Below are positions 27,755-32,386 of a stretch of DNA of 64,000 nt, in pieces (positions within the stretch are counted from its first letter, which is position 1; each line of letters begins with the position of its first letter). This DNA comes from Bombella pluederhausensis (GTDB taxonomy: Bacteria > Pseudomonadota > Alphaproteobacteria > Acetobacterales > Acetobacteraceae): the NCBI RefSeq assembly GCF_026385525.1, contig NZ_JANIDY010000004.1, positions 62,001 through 126,000 of the forward strand, in the 5' to 3' direction. The position numbers were made by a program, and so were the translations under genes. The notes below the pieces were generated by a model. It saw only the letters and a list, made by a program, of their open reading frames with translations. It searched no databases and was not told where the DNA came from.

Positions 27755-28886
27755 ATGTCGGCTGAGACCGAAGCCCTCTCCGAACAGATCAAGCAGTCGG
27801 TGGCACTGCTGAGGAGGCATCTTTGACTGGGATGTCGCCAAAACACGCCTTGCCGAACTGAATCATCTCTCTGAAGACCCGGAGCTCTGGAATAATCCGG
27901 ACGCCGCCCAGAAACTGATGCGTGAGCGCACCATGCTCGCCAATCAGATTGAAGGGGTCGAGGCTCTGGAAGCCGATGTGCAGGACACGCTGGACCTTGT
28001 CGAGCTGGCCGAGATGGAGAATGACGAGGCTGTCGTGCAGGAGGGGCTCACCACCCTGCGCAGCCTCGCCGCTCAGGCCCAACAGCGTGAAACAGAAAGC
28101 CTGCTCTCTGGCGAAGCTGACAGCAATGACTGCTATCTTGAGGTCAATGCCGGTGCCGGTGGTACGGAGGCACAGGACTGGGCAGAGATGCTTCTGCGCA
28201 TGTACACACGCTGGTCCGAAAAGCACGGCTATAAAGTGACCATGATGGAAAGCAGCGAAGGTGAGCAGGCCGGACTGAAATCCGCCACCATCCTCGTCAG
28301 CGGTCCCAACGCCTATGGCTGGCTGAAGACGGAAGCCGGGGTGCATCGCCTTGTGCGCATCTCCCCCTTCGACTCCGCAGCACGGCGGCAGACTTCCTTT
28401 GCCTCCATCTATATCTCCCCTGTTGTGGATGATTCCATCGAGATCGAGATCATCGATTCCGACCTGCGGGTGGATACGTTCCGGGCCTCCGGGGCTGGTG
28501 GGCAGCACGTCAACAAAACAGACTCTGCCATCCGTATCACCCACATCCCGACCGGCATCGTTGTGGCCTGCCAGACGGACCGTTCCCAGCACCGCAACCG
28601 GGCCACGGCCATGGAAATGCTGAAAGCCCGCCTCTATGAGGCTGAACTTCAGAAGCGGGAAGCTGAGGCCTCTGCTGCCGAAGCCGCCAAGACAGACATT
28701 GGCTGGGGTCATCAGATCCGTTCTTACGTTCTGGCCCCATACCAGCTCGTCAAGGACCTGCGGACCAACATTGAGAAGGGCAATCCTGATGCCGTTCTTG
28801 ATGGCGATCTGGATGAGTTCATGGCTGCTTCTCTGGCCCAGCGTGTGAGCGCCACACGGTCCGAGGCCAGCGCTACGGCTCAGTAA
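27755..28886 (+). CDS. prfB: Peptide chain release factor 2, made by programmed +1 frameshift
   Basis: RF2 recognises UGA and UAA and releases the finished protein. The gene is join(27755..27823, 27825..28886), 376 aa. Frame one runs 23 codons from ATG at 27755 to CTT, then in-frame TGA at 27824; skipping one base gives GAC TGG GAT and continues as RF2. The second frame shows the stop-codon-reading tripeptide in [14 protein letters not shown] and the peptidyl-hydrolysis loop [14 protein letters not shown] (GGQ). A caller ignoring the shift would start at an internal ATG at 27918 and lose the N-terminus. A strong terminator follows. No other prfB-like gene is seen. Confidence 0.95.
27812..27826 (+). 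other. RF2 autoregulatory +1 frameshift site
   Basis: An internal Shine-Dalgarno AGGAGG (27812-27817), 3-nt spacing CAT, then the slippery CTT and TGA followed by C (27821-27827). This is the classic prfB recoding signal: low RF2 lets the ribosome pause at TGA and shift +1 on CUU, raising RF2 synthesis. The SD here is the full AGGAGG rather than the AGGGGG of E. coli. Confidence 0.96.
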
Positions 28887-28914
28887 GGCCAGCGATAGAA
28901 CGATTACCGACAGG

Positions 28915-28951
28915 AAGGGGCATGATCTCGAACAGGATCATGCCCCTTTTT
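28915..28951 (+). terminator. Intrinsic terminator of prfB
   Basis: A 13-bp stem, AAGGGGCATGATC (28915-28927) with GATCATGCCCCTT (28936-28948), 8-nt loop, followed by TTT. It starts 28 bp after the prfB stop. Confidence 0.9.
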
Positions 28952-29215
28952 CATCGTCATATTTCTGTCATTTTCACGACAGCATGACGTTACTTATGAA
29001 GAAATCCTGCCATTTGACCAAAAATTTCTGTTATTTTCATAGGGACGACCAACCAAAACAATTCACAGATACATCCCTGTCTTCAACAGGATTTTTACCC
29101 AAAAAAGTGCAGAAAACTGCTGATCCTGACAAAGACTGAAAAAATATCCACATCACGACCCTTTTTTATCCACAAAAGAACCTGCGAAAGAGTCGCATAA
29201 CACTACTTGCATCCA

Positions 29216-29330
29216 AGGGGCAGCTTGGGCCATTGGTAAAGAGAGCAGCATGGGAGTAATCCCGGGCTGATCCGCTGGCTCTCTCCTCCGGAAAATGGCG
29301 CTCCGTGGGAGATAGGTCAGCGCTGCCCCT
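29216..29330 (+). ncRNA. Candidate structured RNA, three-helix junction (class unknown)
   Basis: The 590-bp gap between prfB and tonB holds no convincing gene. Bases 28952-29215 are AT-rich with no clear structure, but 29216-29330 is GC-rich and folds well. Helix A: AGGGGCAGC (29216-29224) with GCTGCCCCT (29322-29330), 9 perfect pairs. Helix B: 29240-29249 with 29274-29284, 10 pairs and one bulged G at 29277, capped by a small GGG/CCC hairpin. Helix C: CCTCCGG (29285-29291) with CCGTGGG (29303-29309), one mismatch and one G-U pair, 11-nt loop. I recognise no known riboswitch consensus and no U-tract follows. The strand is not proven, as the minus strand folds equally. tonB starts 146 bp downstream. 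Confidence 0.4.
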
Positions 29331-29476
29331 ACACCGTATGACACGGGCACACATCGTCCCCTCCCACCTGTATGGGCACTGCCCTCATGTGGAGGAACCA
29401 GTCACACTGGCAGATCCGCTCTGCCAAAAACAACGCCAGATCAGACGGCGTGGGAAAAGGGTAAGAAGGTTCTAGA

Positions 29477-30169
29477 ATGAGAAGCTATGCCGTCCAGCAA
29501 CGCAAGCCGACAGACTATATAGTCGCTGTTGTCGTGGCTTTTCTGGCCATCGGACTGGTGGTCTATGCCCTGACCCTCACAAGGGCGGAAAAGCCTGCGC
29601 CCGCACATCCGCCTATCCAGACACGGGTTATTACGGAGGCACCACCTCCGCCGCCGCCCCCACCACCACCTCAGCCGGTGATGGTCCAACCGCCGCCGCC
29701 TTATATTCCTCCGCCAAAGATCAGGGTGGCACCACCGCCAAAGCCGCCGATCACGCACAGCCATCAGAAGGCGCCCAAACCGAAGGCGGCCGTCACCCAG
29801 CCTGCACCGTCTGCTCCGGCGCAGTCTTCTTCCACGGCGGCACCGGCGGCCAGCTCCAACACCAGCTCATCCGAGAATGACCATTCTGCTGGGGCTACGC
29901 CTATCAATAATGTGCGCCCGGAATATCCAGAGGAAGCACAGGAGGAAAACCGTGAAGGTTCCGTAACGGCCTCCTGCGACATTCTCACCAATGGCAGACC
30001 CGCCAACTGTAAGCTGCTGAATGTCAAAGGTGGGCACGACTTCGCCGAGAGTGCTCTAGACTTCCTCGAGCATTCCGCCGTCCGCTATCAGCCTGCCGTG
30101 GTTGGAGGGCAGCCGGTCGTGGAACATAACCACGTCCTGCATGTGGACTTCACCCTCGGTGACGACTGA
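29477..30169 (+). CDS. tonB: TonB-type energy transducer
   Basis: A 230-aa periplasm-spanning protein. It has a short cytoplasmic start, one membrane helix at about residues 14-34 (YIVAVVVAFLAIGLVVYALT), a very proline-rich linker including an uninterrupted run of about ten prolines, an Ala/Ser-rich stretch, and a C-terminal TonB domain (NNVRPEYPEEAQEENREGSV through VEHNHVLHVDFTL). It delivers proton-motive energy from ExbB/ExbD to outer-membrane receptors such as the one at 14.7-17.0 kb. AAGG precedes the ATG. It opens the operon with exbB, two exbD genes and a TPR protein. The C-terminal domain has two cysteines (CDIL, CKLL) that may form a disulfide. Confidence 0.92.
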   Translation: MRSYAVQQRKPTDYIVAVVVAFLAIGLVVYALTLTRAEKPAPAHPPIQTRVITEAPPPPPPPPPPQPVMVQPPPPYIPPPKIRVAPPPKPPITHSHQKAPKPKAAVTQPAPSAPAQSSSTAAPAASSNTSSSENDHSAGATPINNVRPEYPEEAQEENREGSVTASCDILTNGRPANCKLLNVKGGHDFAESALDFLEHSAVRYQPAVVGGQPVVEHNHVLHVDFTLGDD

Positions 30170-30287
30170 AGCCAGCATCATTCTGTCCCTGTCCCCCTCA
30201 TAAACACCTTTGAGGGAACAGGCAGCAGACCGTTTTCACATTGTCCCATCCAGCCATGAATGGCAGGAATAAAGGGAAAACTGACAT

Positions 30288-30332
30288 GGGAGGCTCCCCT
30301 CCCGCAGGCGCACCTCAGAACGGGTGCTTTTT
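30288..30332 (+). promoter_or_regulatory. Two hairpins before exbB, second with a T5 tail
   Basis: GGGAGG/CCTCCC (30288-30293, 30298-30303; 4-nt loop) is followed by GCACC/GGTGC (30310-30314, 30323-30327; 8-nt loop) and TTTTT at 30328-30332. The second hairpin has the form of a weak intrinsic terminator and ends 20 bp before the chosen exbB ATG, so it may lower exbB expression relative to tonB or act as an attenuator. If translation began further upstream these bases would be coding. Confidence 0.45.
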
Positions 30333-30351
30333 AGACAAGGATATGGGTTTC

Positions 30352-31401
30352 ATGACCAGACTGTTCCGCCTCCCCGTAACTGCTGCTGCGCCCAAGGCGC
30401 GCGCTGTCTATGGCACGGCCCTGGCCCTGACTCTGGCAGCCATGCCGCTGGCCTCCGCTGCTTTCGCACAGGATGCCGCACCCGCCGTTCCGCCAGCCGG
30501 GGCTACGATGTCAGCCCAGCCCCCCGCTGGGGCAACACCTGCTGTCCCTCCAGCTGGCACAACGCCCGCCATTGCCCCCGCAGGCACCACCCCTGCCGTA
30601 CCCCCGGCCGGTGCTGAAGGTGGCACCCCCGTCACAGCCACACCGGTGAGCGACAAACCTGCCGAGACAGCCCCCAAGGAAAACCCCTACGGGTTGGGCG
30701 CACTGTGGAAGAACGGTGACATCATCGCCCGTGGCGTGCTGCTCATTATGGCCATCATGTCTCTGGGGACATGGATCATCATGATCAGCAAGTTCATCGA
30801 ACAGTCACGCCTGTTCAGTGCCTCCAGAGCCGTCAACCAGAACTTCTGGACACAGAAAACCATTCAGGATGGCGCACAGACACTGAAGGCCGATTCCCCT
30901 TTCCGCTACATTGCAGAAACGGGCATCGTTGCTGCACGTCATCATGAAGGCTCCATGCGGGATTCCATCGACCTCCAGTCATGGACAGCCATGTCCATCC
31001 AGCGTGCGCTGGAGACCATCAATACACGCCTTCAGGGTGGGCTGGCCTTCCTTGGTACGGTGGGCTCCACCTCTCCCTTTATCGGTCTGTTCGGTACGGT
31101 CTGGGGTATTTACCACGCTCTGACGGCTATCGGGATTGCCGGTCAGGCTTCCATCGATAAGGTCGCCGGTCCGGTTGGTGAATCCCTCATCATGACAGCG
31201 ATCGGTCTGGCCACTGCCGTCCCTGCCGTGCTGGGCTATAACCTCCTCGTCCGCCGCAACAAGGGTGCTATGGACCGGGTCCGCAACTTCGGGTCTGACC
31301 TGCATTCCGTCCTGATCGGTGGTTATCGCCATGAGGCCGGTTTTGCCGAAGGCGTCAAGGATAACAGCCCGACCACCACAACAACCAACGAACGGGTCTG
31401 A
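30352..31401 (+). CDS. exbB: ExbB/TolQ/MotA-family proton channel with N-terminal signal and Pro/Ala/Gly repeat
   Basis: About 349 aa from the ATG at 30352 (MTRLFRLPVTAAA), chosen because AAGGA lies about 10 nt upstream and a signal-peptide-like segment follows, ending ASAAFAQ. Earlier in-frame ATGs at 30343 and 30241 exist. After the signal comes a periplasmic stretch of 9-residue PPAGTTPAV-like repeats, then three membrane helices: WKNGDIIARGVLLIMAIMSL, GLAFLGTVGSTSPFIGLFGT and LIMTAIGLATAVPAVLGYNL. The last two form the MotA/TolQ/ExbB core. With ExbD it converts proton flow to TonB motion. The Pro/Ala N-terminal extension is the long ExbB form known from several alpha- and gammaproteobacteria. 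Confidence 0.92.
   Translation: MTRLFRLPVTAAAPKARAVYGTALALTLAAMPLASAAFAQDAAPAVPPAGATMSAQPPAGATPAVPPAGTTPAIAPAGTTPAVPPAGAEGGTPVTATPVSDKPAETAPKENPYGLGALWKNGDIIARGVLLIMAIMSLGTWIIMISKFIEQSRLFSASRAVNQNFWTQKTIQDGAQTLKADSPFRYIAETGIVAARHHEGSMRDSIDLQSWTAMSIQRALETINTRLQGGLAFLGTVGSTSPFIGLFGTVWGIYHALTAIGIAGQASIDKVAGPVGESLIMTAIGLATAVPAVLGYNLLVRRNKGAMDRVRNFGSDLHSVLIGGYRHEAGFAEGVKDNSPTTTTTNERV
30484..30618 (+). repeat. Degenerate 27-bp tandem repeats coding PPAGxTPAx units in exbB
   Basis: About four to five in-frame units encode PPAGATMSAQ, PPAGATPAV, PPAGTTPAI, APAGTTPAV and PPAGAEGG. Units differ at third positions, so this is an old, in-frame expansion in the periplasmic linker of ExbB rather than a fresh duplication. 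Confidence 0.75.
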
Positions 31402-31405
31402 GATC

Positions 31406-31828
31406 ATGGCATTCAACACCGGAGACATAGGTGATGATGGCGAGGTGGTATCAGCCATCAACACGACACCACTCGTTGACGTCATGCTGGTGCTGCTCAT
31501 CATCTTCCTCATCACCATTCCGGTGGCCACGCATACCGTAAAGGTCAAGCTGCCGGTGGACCGCAACCAGCCGACCCAGACCAAACCGGGCAACATCGTG
31601 CTGGCTGTAACGGCTGATGGGCAGACTTACTGGAATACCCAGCCCATCAGCGACCACAAGGAGCTCATCAGCCGCCTTATGGAAGCCGCACGTATGCAGC
31701 CACAGCCACAGATTCAGATCCGTGGTGACGGCTCAGCCCAGTACATGCCGGTCGGCAAGATCGTGGCTGCCTGTCAAGAAGCGGGCATCCAGCATGTGGA
31801 CTTCATCACGGAGCAGCCACACGACTGA
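31406..31828 (+). CDS. exbD: ExbD/TolR-family protein, first copy
   Basis: About 140 aa from the ATG at 31406, 4 bp after the exbB stop. It has a short cytoplasmic N-terminus, one membrane helix carrying the proton-relay aspartate in SAINTTPLVDVMLVLLIIFL, and a periplasmic ExbD domain ending with the AGIQHVDFITE segment. It works in the inner membrane with ExbB and TonB. A similar but distinct copy follows 117 bp downstream, an arrangement in which one copy may serve TonB and the other a different partner. Confidence 0.92.
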   Translation: MAFNTGDIGDDGEVVSAINTTPLVDVMLVLLIIFLITIPVATHTVKVKLPVDRNQPTQTKPGNIVLAVTADGQTYWNTQPISDHKELISRLMEAARMQPQPQIQIRGDGSAQYMPVGKIVAACQEAGIQHVDFITEQPHD

Positions 31829-31945: not shown

Positions 31946-32386
31946 ATGGCCATGAACGTCGGTGCAGAACCCACCCACGAAGATGAAGCCATTGTCGACA
32001 TCAACACCACGCCACTGATTGACGTGATGCTGGTGCTGCTCATCATGCTCATCATTACCATCCCGCTCCAGACCCATTCCGTGGCGATTGACCTGCCACA
32101 GGGTGATCCACCACCTTCTACCGTCCAGCCGCAGGTCGCCACCATCAGCATCAATTACGATAACACGCTGACATGGAATGACACCCCCATCACCTCCGAG
32201 GATGATCTTCAGGCCCGCCTGAATGAGGCCGTGCATCCTGCCACGGGGGAACAGCCGGAAATCCATATCCGTCCCGATCGTCTTGCCACCTATAAAACCG
32301 TGGCCCATGTCATGGCCGATGCCCAGCGCCTTGGTGTGACCAAGCTCGGCATTGTCGGTCTGGACCAGTATGTAGAAGGACAGTAA
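31946..32386 (+). CDS. ExbD/TolR-family protein, second copy
   Basis: 146 aa, start ATG at 31946 after a GGAGA site. The membrane helix again contains the functional Asp in DINTTPLIDVMLVLLIMLII. The periplasmic domain includes TISINYDNTLTWNDTPIT and ends near TKLGIVGLDQYVEG. It differs clearly from the first ExbD in the periplasmic domain, so this is an old duplication. The 117-bp space between the two exbD genes contains no recognisable gene or terminator. Tandem exbD genes after exbB are known from other TonB clusters. Confidence 0.92.
   Translation: MAMNVGAEPTHEDEAIVDINTTPLIDVMLVLLIMLIITIPLQTHSVAIDLPQGDPPPSTVQPQVATISINYDNTLTWNDTPITSEDDLQARLNEAVHPATGEQPEIHIRPDRLATYKTVAHVMADAQRLGVTKLGIVGLDQYVEGQ

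Follow-up and report, generated by a model that had tools for sequence, protein, structure and literature searches.

We conclude that the block at 29216-29330 of the window, the 64,000-nt stretch of DNA that was analysed, is most probably part of the promoter of the tonB-exbB-exbD-exbD operon joined to the start of its 5′ leader, and not one folded RNA. As judged from related sequences, the first ~21 bases of the block would represent the spacer and the -10 end of the promoter, transcription would start at about 29240-29247, the transcript would begin with the hairpin P2, and the remainder of the block would form the beginning of an operon leader of about 230 nt. The analysis thereby exchanges a doubtful structured-RNA candidate for a promoter-plus-leader model of the acetic acid bacterial TonB system, in which CTTGACA-N17-CCCA marks the tonB promoter in several genera. 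Such a promoter with a structured leader is largely ordinary; the model does not account for an unusual pair of DnaA-box-like sites in the same gap. The features discussed below are collected in Table 1.

Table 1. Features of the prfB-tonB region, in window coordinates
Feature	Position	Strand	Basis or remark
prfB (peptide chain release factor 2) ORF	27918-28886	+	Pfam PCRF and RF-1 domains
Terminator-like hairpin and T5 3′ of prfB (GGGGCATGATC / GATCATGCCCC TTTTT)	28917-28951	+	Read by eye
DnaA-box-like site 1, ATATCCACA, one mismatch to TTATNCACA	29144-29152	+	Tandem pair in 11/11 genus genomes
DnaA-box-like site 2, TTATCCACA, 22 bp from site 1	29166-29174	+	Sequence match, relatives
Candidate operator TGCGAAAGAGTCGCA, an imperfect palindrome close to the -35 on its 5′ side	29183-29197	+	Conserved in genus loci
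-35 element CTTGCAT (CTTGACA in L048 and other genera)	29206-29212	+	Motif comparison across relatives
5′ arm of closing helix (P1), AGGGGCAGC	29216-29224	+	Within promoter spacer; helix unsupported
-10 region CCATTGG, spaced 17 nt from CTTGCAT; other genera have CCCA	29230-29236	+	Motif comparison; lax Gluconobacter oxydans -10
Hairpin P2, at about the predicted tonB mRNA 5′ end	29243-29272	+	Core GGGA-NNNN-TCCC in seven aligned genomes
Second leader helix P3 and inner helix	29274-29321	+	Seven genus members with alignable leaders
3′ arm of closing helix (P1), GCTGCCCCT	29322-29330	+	Helix unsupported
tonB	29477-30169	+	Pfam TonB_C 1.4e-14
exbB	30241-31401 (ORF extent, start approximate)	+	Pfam MotA_ExbB
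exbD 1	31319-31828 (ORF extent; true start probably internal)	+	Pfam ExbD
exbD 2	31946-32386	+	Pfam ExbD

The window comes from a 2.0 Mb Acetobacteraceae genome. As had been described, prfB and tonB enclose a gene-free gap of 590 bp (28887-29476), and prfB adjoins tonB in all 11 genus genomes. The terminator-like hairpin after prfB suggests that tonB has a promoter of its own; this hairpin is absent from the output of our promoter and terminator scan, and comparable inverted repeats occupy its position in alignment A1. Both A1 and a second alignment, A2, comprise the well-aligning gaps from seven genus genomes, the window included. The most conserved run in these seven gaps is not the closing helix of the proposed RNA, but the stretch from 29144 to about 29240, which holds two sites of the TATNCACA type together with the palindrome TGCGAAAGAGTCGCA and the sequences CTTGCATC and GGCCATTGGTAAA. 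A leader peptide was considered and rejected, because the aligned relatives do not retain an ATG that is present in the leader of the window, as read from A1. A separate hairpin, ACGCC/GGCGT (29433-29451), lies just 5′ of the tonB ribosome-binding site, is largely kept in the seven aligned relatives, and is terminator-like when read on the minus strand. The gap from Parasaccharibacter apium (L122) shows no difference from those of G007 and G008 across the 351 nt compared.

The promoter motif emerged from comparison with other genera. CTTGACA-N17-CC was first seen on reading the gaps of L050-L052, which are from other genera, and of G010 (L048), and CTTGACA-N17-CCCAATC was then found in three of three further genera, namely Komagataeibacter (L123), Gluconobacter (L124), and Acetobacter (L125). 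The prfB-exbB interval holds each of these last three motifs, and a TonB was detected for L124 and L125 but not for L123; the Acetobacter stretch covered 1100 nt after prfB, running past the tonB start at 824 nt, and its motif precedes that start. The corresponding sequence of the window is CTTGCAT-N17-CCAT (29206-29233). When written to accommodate these variants, as CTTG[AC][CA][AT]-N17-CC[CA][AT], the motif is present in 17 of 18 post-prfB gaps (the sole miss is L049) against 0.05 expected per set from 200 mononucleotide shuffles, where the pattern was fitted to these same gaps and two of them, L045 and L047, have identical sequence.

Because the pattern had been fitted to known gaps, we ran a position-free test of CTTGACA-N17-CCCAA on 200 family genomes, which gave 42 matches in 37 genomes, versus 24 for the reversed pattern (both totals were summed by eye). 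Of 30 motif loci examined, 11 sit elsewhere and 19 fall into the prfB-exbB interval in the same orientation, TonB being detected in 16 of the 19; the 12 matches without a retrieved locus consist of the known G018 gap (L052) and 11 that were left out. Genomes whose gap had not previously been read contributed 17 of the 19 prfB-exbB loci, and two had been read already. Several genera of the family thus have elements resembling -35 and -10 sequences, held at a fixed spacing, between prfB and tonB, and in these genera the stretch is a promoter-like motif that belongs to the tonB operon. We infer that CTTGCAT-N17-CCAT is a working promoter in the window.

A generic sigma-70 scan for TTGACA/TATAAT found no promoter in the gap, and the tonB -10 region is far from TATAAT. 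A study on Gluconobacter oxydans 621H describes promoters with a ttGnnn -35 and a weak -10, nAtnnn, whose first base is t or c (PMC5756330). CATTGG (29231-29236), separated from TTGCAT by an 18-nt spacer, fits this weak -10. The tonB motif therefore shares the ttGnnn -35 and the weak -10 of those lax promoters, which have spacers of 16-23; in contrast, CTTGACA-N17-CCCA is more constant than the 621H consensus (PMC5756330).

The position of this motif bears directly on the 9-bp helix that was originally predicted to close a 115-nt RNA. The two arms, AGGGGCAGC and GCTGCCCCT, are indeed fully complementary. Shuffling also yields at least one perfect 9-bp inverted pair (loop up to 150), at a rate of 3.2% for the block (500 shuffles), 8.8% for 29200-29476, and 19% for the whole gap, and by itself the helix is only mildly unusual. 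Conservation, which selection on the RNA structure had led one to expect, was not borne out: across the seven sequences of A2, 55.6% of 63 cells are paired versus 56.4% in shuffled columns, changes on both sides occur in one of nine pairs, and the outermost pair is missing in six of the seven. The 5′ arm is enclosed by the conserved -35 and -10, so RNA initiated at that promoter would lack it, and with a start at about 29240-29247 the arm would be untranscribed spacer DNA. The closing helix looks like chance pairing with promoter DNA.

The folding energy of the block is nevertheless low, as claimed. On the plus strand it amounts to -58.6 kcal/mol (z -3.48), and one of 200 dinucleotide shuffles folds as well; on the minus strand z is -3.11, and none of 200 does. 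These energies and the perfect arms are real features, but most likely the block is not one RNA. A free sRNA, or a 115-nt structured RNA closed by the 9-bp helix, would be in keeping with the low energy on either strand, yet we consider it highly improbable, given that the closing helix is not conserved, that its 5′ arm falls inside the promoter spacer, and that the scan found no terminator-like site after the block on the plus strand. Of the two roles first put forward, a tonB/exb leader most likely applies to part of the block, and the free sRNA is unsupported. The contrast in GC content likewise survived in part. There is an AT-rich stretch at about 28946-29181 (34-41% GC in 59-nt bins), but the rest of the gap is not all AT-rich, as 29359-29417 has 61% GC and matches the block in richness. 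With 57-60% GC in the 2-kb bins around it, the block has the ordinary GC content of the genome and lies beside an AT-rich upstream stretch.

As had been surmised for riboswitch cores, the block fits no known RNA family, in that no Rfam model matched it at gathering score. At the same score, the whole window yielded three tRNAs only, and 10 related loci yielded no match; four sub-threshold matches in the gap, such as SR1 (minus strand, 28914-29035), lie off the block and correspond to no fitting family. We also looked for a second genomic copy of the block and rejected it, as a DNA search gave one full copy and ten short matches. A mobile element with terminal inverted repeats was ruled out by the single copy and by synteny in relatives, and a search for plasmid relatives gave no match for 28950-29500.

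When the leader is folded from 29238, 29242, or 29246, P2 and P3 form and the closing helix is absent, and both helices fit a tonB 5′ leader. Their conservation was assessed by a covariation test on the seven genus sequences of A2, scored against 500 shuffles. In P2, pairing holds for 80.2% of cells and four base pairs have changes on both sides, a covariation that is not significant in these seven genomes (74 of 500 shuffles reach its score), and an ungapped comparison of L045 with L046 revealed no clear compensatory changes in P2. For P3 the paired share of cells is 97.1%, and for its inner helix 69.5%. Both P2 and P3 thus persist among the seven. For the whole predicted fold, including the closing helix, 75.2% of cells are paired versus 73.7% in shuffles, and only 15 of 500 shuffles attain its covariation score, which leaves room for possible selection on some of the RNA pairing in the leader.

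Folding stability near the 5′ end was compared across 31 distinct leaders. The original 33 entries were reduced by dropping L221 and L223, which are duplicates over the first 60 nt, and the set is also without L047 (identical to L045) and without L230 and L231 (from the same genomes as L051 and L050). Averaged over the set, z was -1.21 in the 60 nt that follow the motif, -0.19 in the 60 nt beyond those, and -0.35 in a 60-nt stretch upstream. The corresponding values were -1.86, +0.27, and +0.33 for the 10 genus leaders, and -0.89, -0.42, and -0.68 for the 21 leaders from outside the genus. The predicted 5′ hairpin is a feature of the genus and is weak outside it. A common GCATATCGGGTATGT directly follows the motif in three leaders, one from Gluconobacter (L124) and two from G063 and G211 (L222 and L224); this 5′ element differs from that of the window's genus.

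The leader helices were also captured in a covariance model, R1, made from A2 minus the closing helix. Under strict filters, R1 recovered the tonB leaders of the three genus genomes among 150 family genomes and no tonB leader outside the genus. Further hits were obtained at G000:C1:30992-31066 in the genome of the window itself (E 0.0015), in G002 (E 0.026), and in G109 (E 0.026). The first two were considered as second copies and rejected, since on reading they proved to be terminator-like hairpins of another intergenic region, and the weak hit in G109 was discarded because it lies in unlike sequence. Applied to 24 sources, R1 recovered the window, L045, L047, and L122, and weakly L048 and L046, together with one window stretch at E 0.87; it matched none of 18 loci from other genera.

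These data also allow one to weigh the idea that P2 and P3 constitute a cis-regulatory RNA, either riboswitch-like or a protein-binding leader, which senses iron status or another ligand. Such an RNA is compatible with the promoter, to which it would simply add a sensing step, and it would accord with the pairing of P2 and P3 in A2, with the whole-fold covariation score, and with the stability of the genus leaders relative to shuffles over their first 60 nt. We nonetheless consider it improbable: the G006-G008 leaders are too short to contain P3, no alternative structures of the kind that switch a ribosome-binding site or a terminator were identified, Rfam gave no match at threshold, and R1 did not reach a tonB leader beyond the genus in the 150 genomes and the 18 other-genus loci searched. 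Within the promoter-plus-leader model, the 5′-proximal P2 may instead protect or tune the 5′ end of the mRNA. E. coli ompA carries a stabilising hairpin at the 5′ end of its mRNA, and P2 would resemble hairpins of this type in being stable and located at about the first transcribed bases.

Initiation at the tonB promoter would, in the same model, be set by two putative operators upstream of the -35, one being the palindrome at 29183-29197 and the other the tandem of DnaA-box-like sites at 29144-29174. In a scan of 10 genus loci, with L047 left out as identical to L045, the palindrome TGCGAAAGAGTCGCA is identical in eight, one base off in L039, and absent in L048. Palindrome-like sites with up to two mismatches numbered 28, 38, and 24 in G000, G007, and G003, against 43, 66, and 49 for the reversed control; because the sites are rarer than the control in all three genomes, no palindrome regulon could be drawn. 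Fur would be a plausible regulator, given that a study on the acetic acid bacterium Gluconacetobacter diazotrophicus reports, for tonB-exbB-exbD1-exbD2, a predicted Fur box in the -35/-10 spacer, some 300 bp 5′ of the tonB start codon (PMC9368920). The operon layout, the long distance from promoter to start codon, and the presence of a candidate operator at the promoter are the same there as here, whereas the candidate palindrome of the window lies upstream of the -35.

The second putative operator is the tandem pair of DnaA-box-like sites. TTATNCACA-type boxes are present in the gap, with one mismatch in site 1 of the window, and the fifth base of site 2 is A, C, or G in relatives, which is the degenerate position of TTATNCACA. 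Every one of the 11 genus genomes has a single copy of the tandem TATNCACA-N14-NATNCACA, without exception in the prfB-tonB gap, and the reversed control has no hits; as the pattern was drawn from these same sequences, only its uniqueness counts as a result. Strict TTATNCACA pairs 4-30 bases apart are found in four of the 11 genus genomes, once each and only upstream of tonB, and in G006-G008 the two sites are joined by a third perfect box, which lies 84 bp upstream. Single TTATNCACA sites number 54 in G007 versus 28 reversed controls and 30 in G000 versus 17; within the window TTATNCACA is not over-represented (two found, 0.9 expected).

It is therefore conceivable that the gap is also a DnaA-binding control site acting on the tonB promoter, either as a titrating or recharging locus or as a DnaA-regulated promoter, which would not be exclusive of the promoter-plus-leader model. 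The uniqueness and constant location of the pair, the permitted variation of its fifth base, the strict pairs, and the third box all speak for this tentative reading, which on balance we do not favour: the pattern derives from the sequences on which it was tried, site 1 of the window has its mismatch and site 2 of G002 reads CCATCCACA, the repeats could serve other transcription factors, and in 23 other-genus loci no perfect box was seen over the 200 bp that precede the motif. As to function, it is unlikely, though worth stating, that DnaA would bind this genome-unique tandem site and either tie the energy supply for taking up iron and nutrients to the cell cycle or use the site as a titrating or recharging locus. 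Should the pair prove genuine, TonB-dependent uptake in the genus would be connected with the control of replication. Among the matches listed in a search of the open literature, no paper dealt with a DnaA box at tonB or with this tonB leader of acetic acid bacteria.

An AT-rich gap that holds DnaA-box-like sites in tandem also suggested oriC, against which the GC skew speaks. Every one of the 32 bins of the window has negative skew. In G003, where C1 is the contig sampled (1.17 of about 2.0 Mb, in 20 stretches of 15 kb), the sole skew switch lies between the stretches at 300-315 and 360-375 kb, with the gap at 1079 kb. Given the negative skew across the window and the distance of the switch in G003, the gap is not a simple origin. 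In G003, dnaA itself (C1 305339-305545; L232) lies close to this plus-to-minus switch, which by the usual rule is the terminus side. The DnaA-box clusters of E. coli, datA and DARS, resemble the gap in having TTATNCACA-type boxes in an intergenic location away from a skew switch, but here there are only two or three predicted boxes, which stand as a direct tandem 22 bp apart at a promoter. The sequence of site 2, TTATCCACA, also occurs with a nearby TTTTCCACA in both G000 and G002, at G000:C1 near 30992 and G002:C12 near 188284 (L239 and L240, 1301-1530), where the site is intergenic and has a terminator-like hairpin after an ORF resembling TolC (name read from the ORF).
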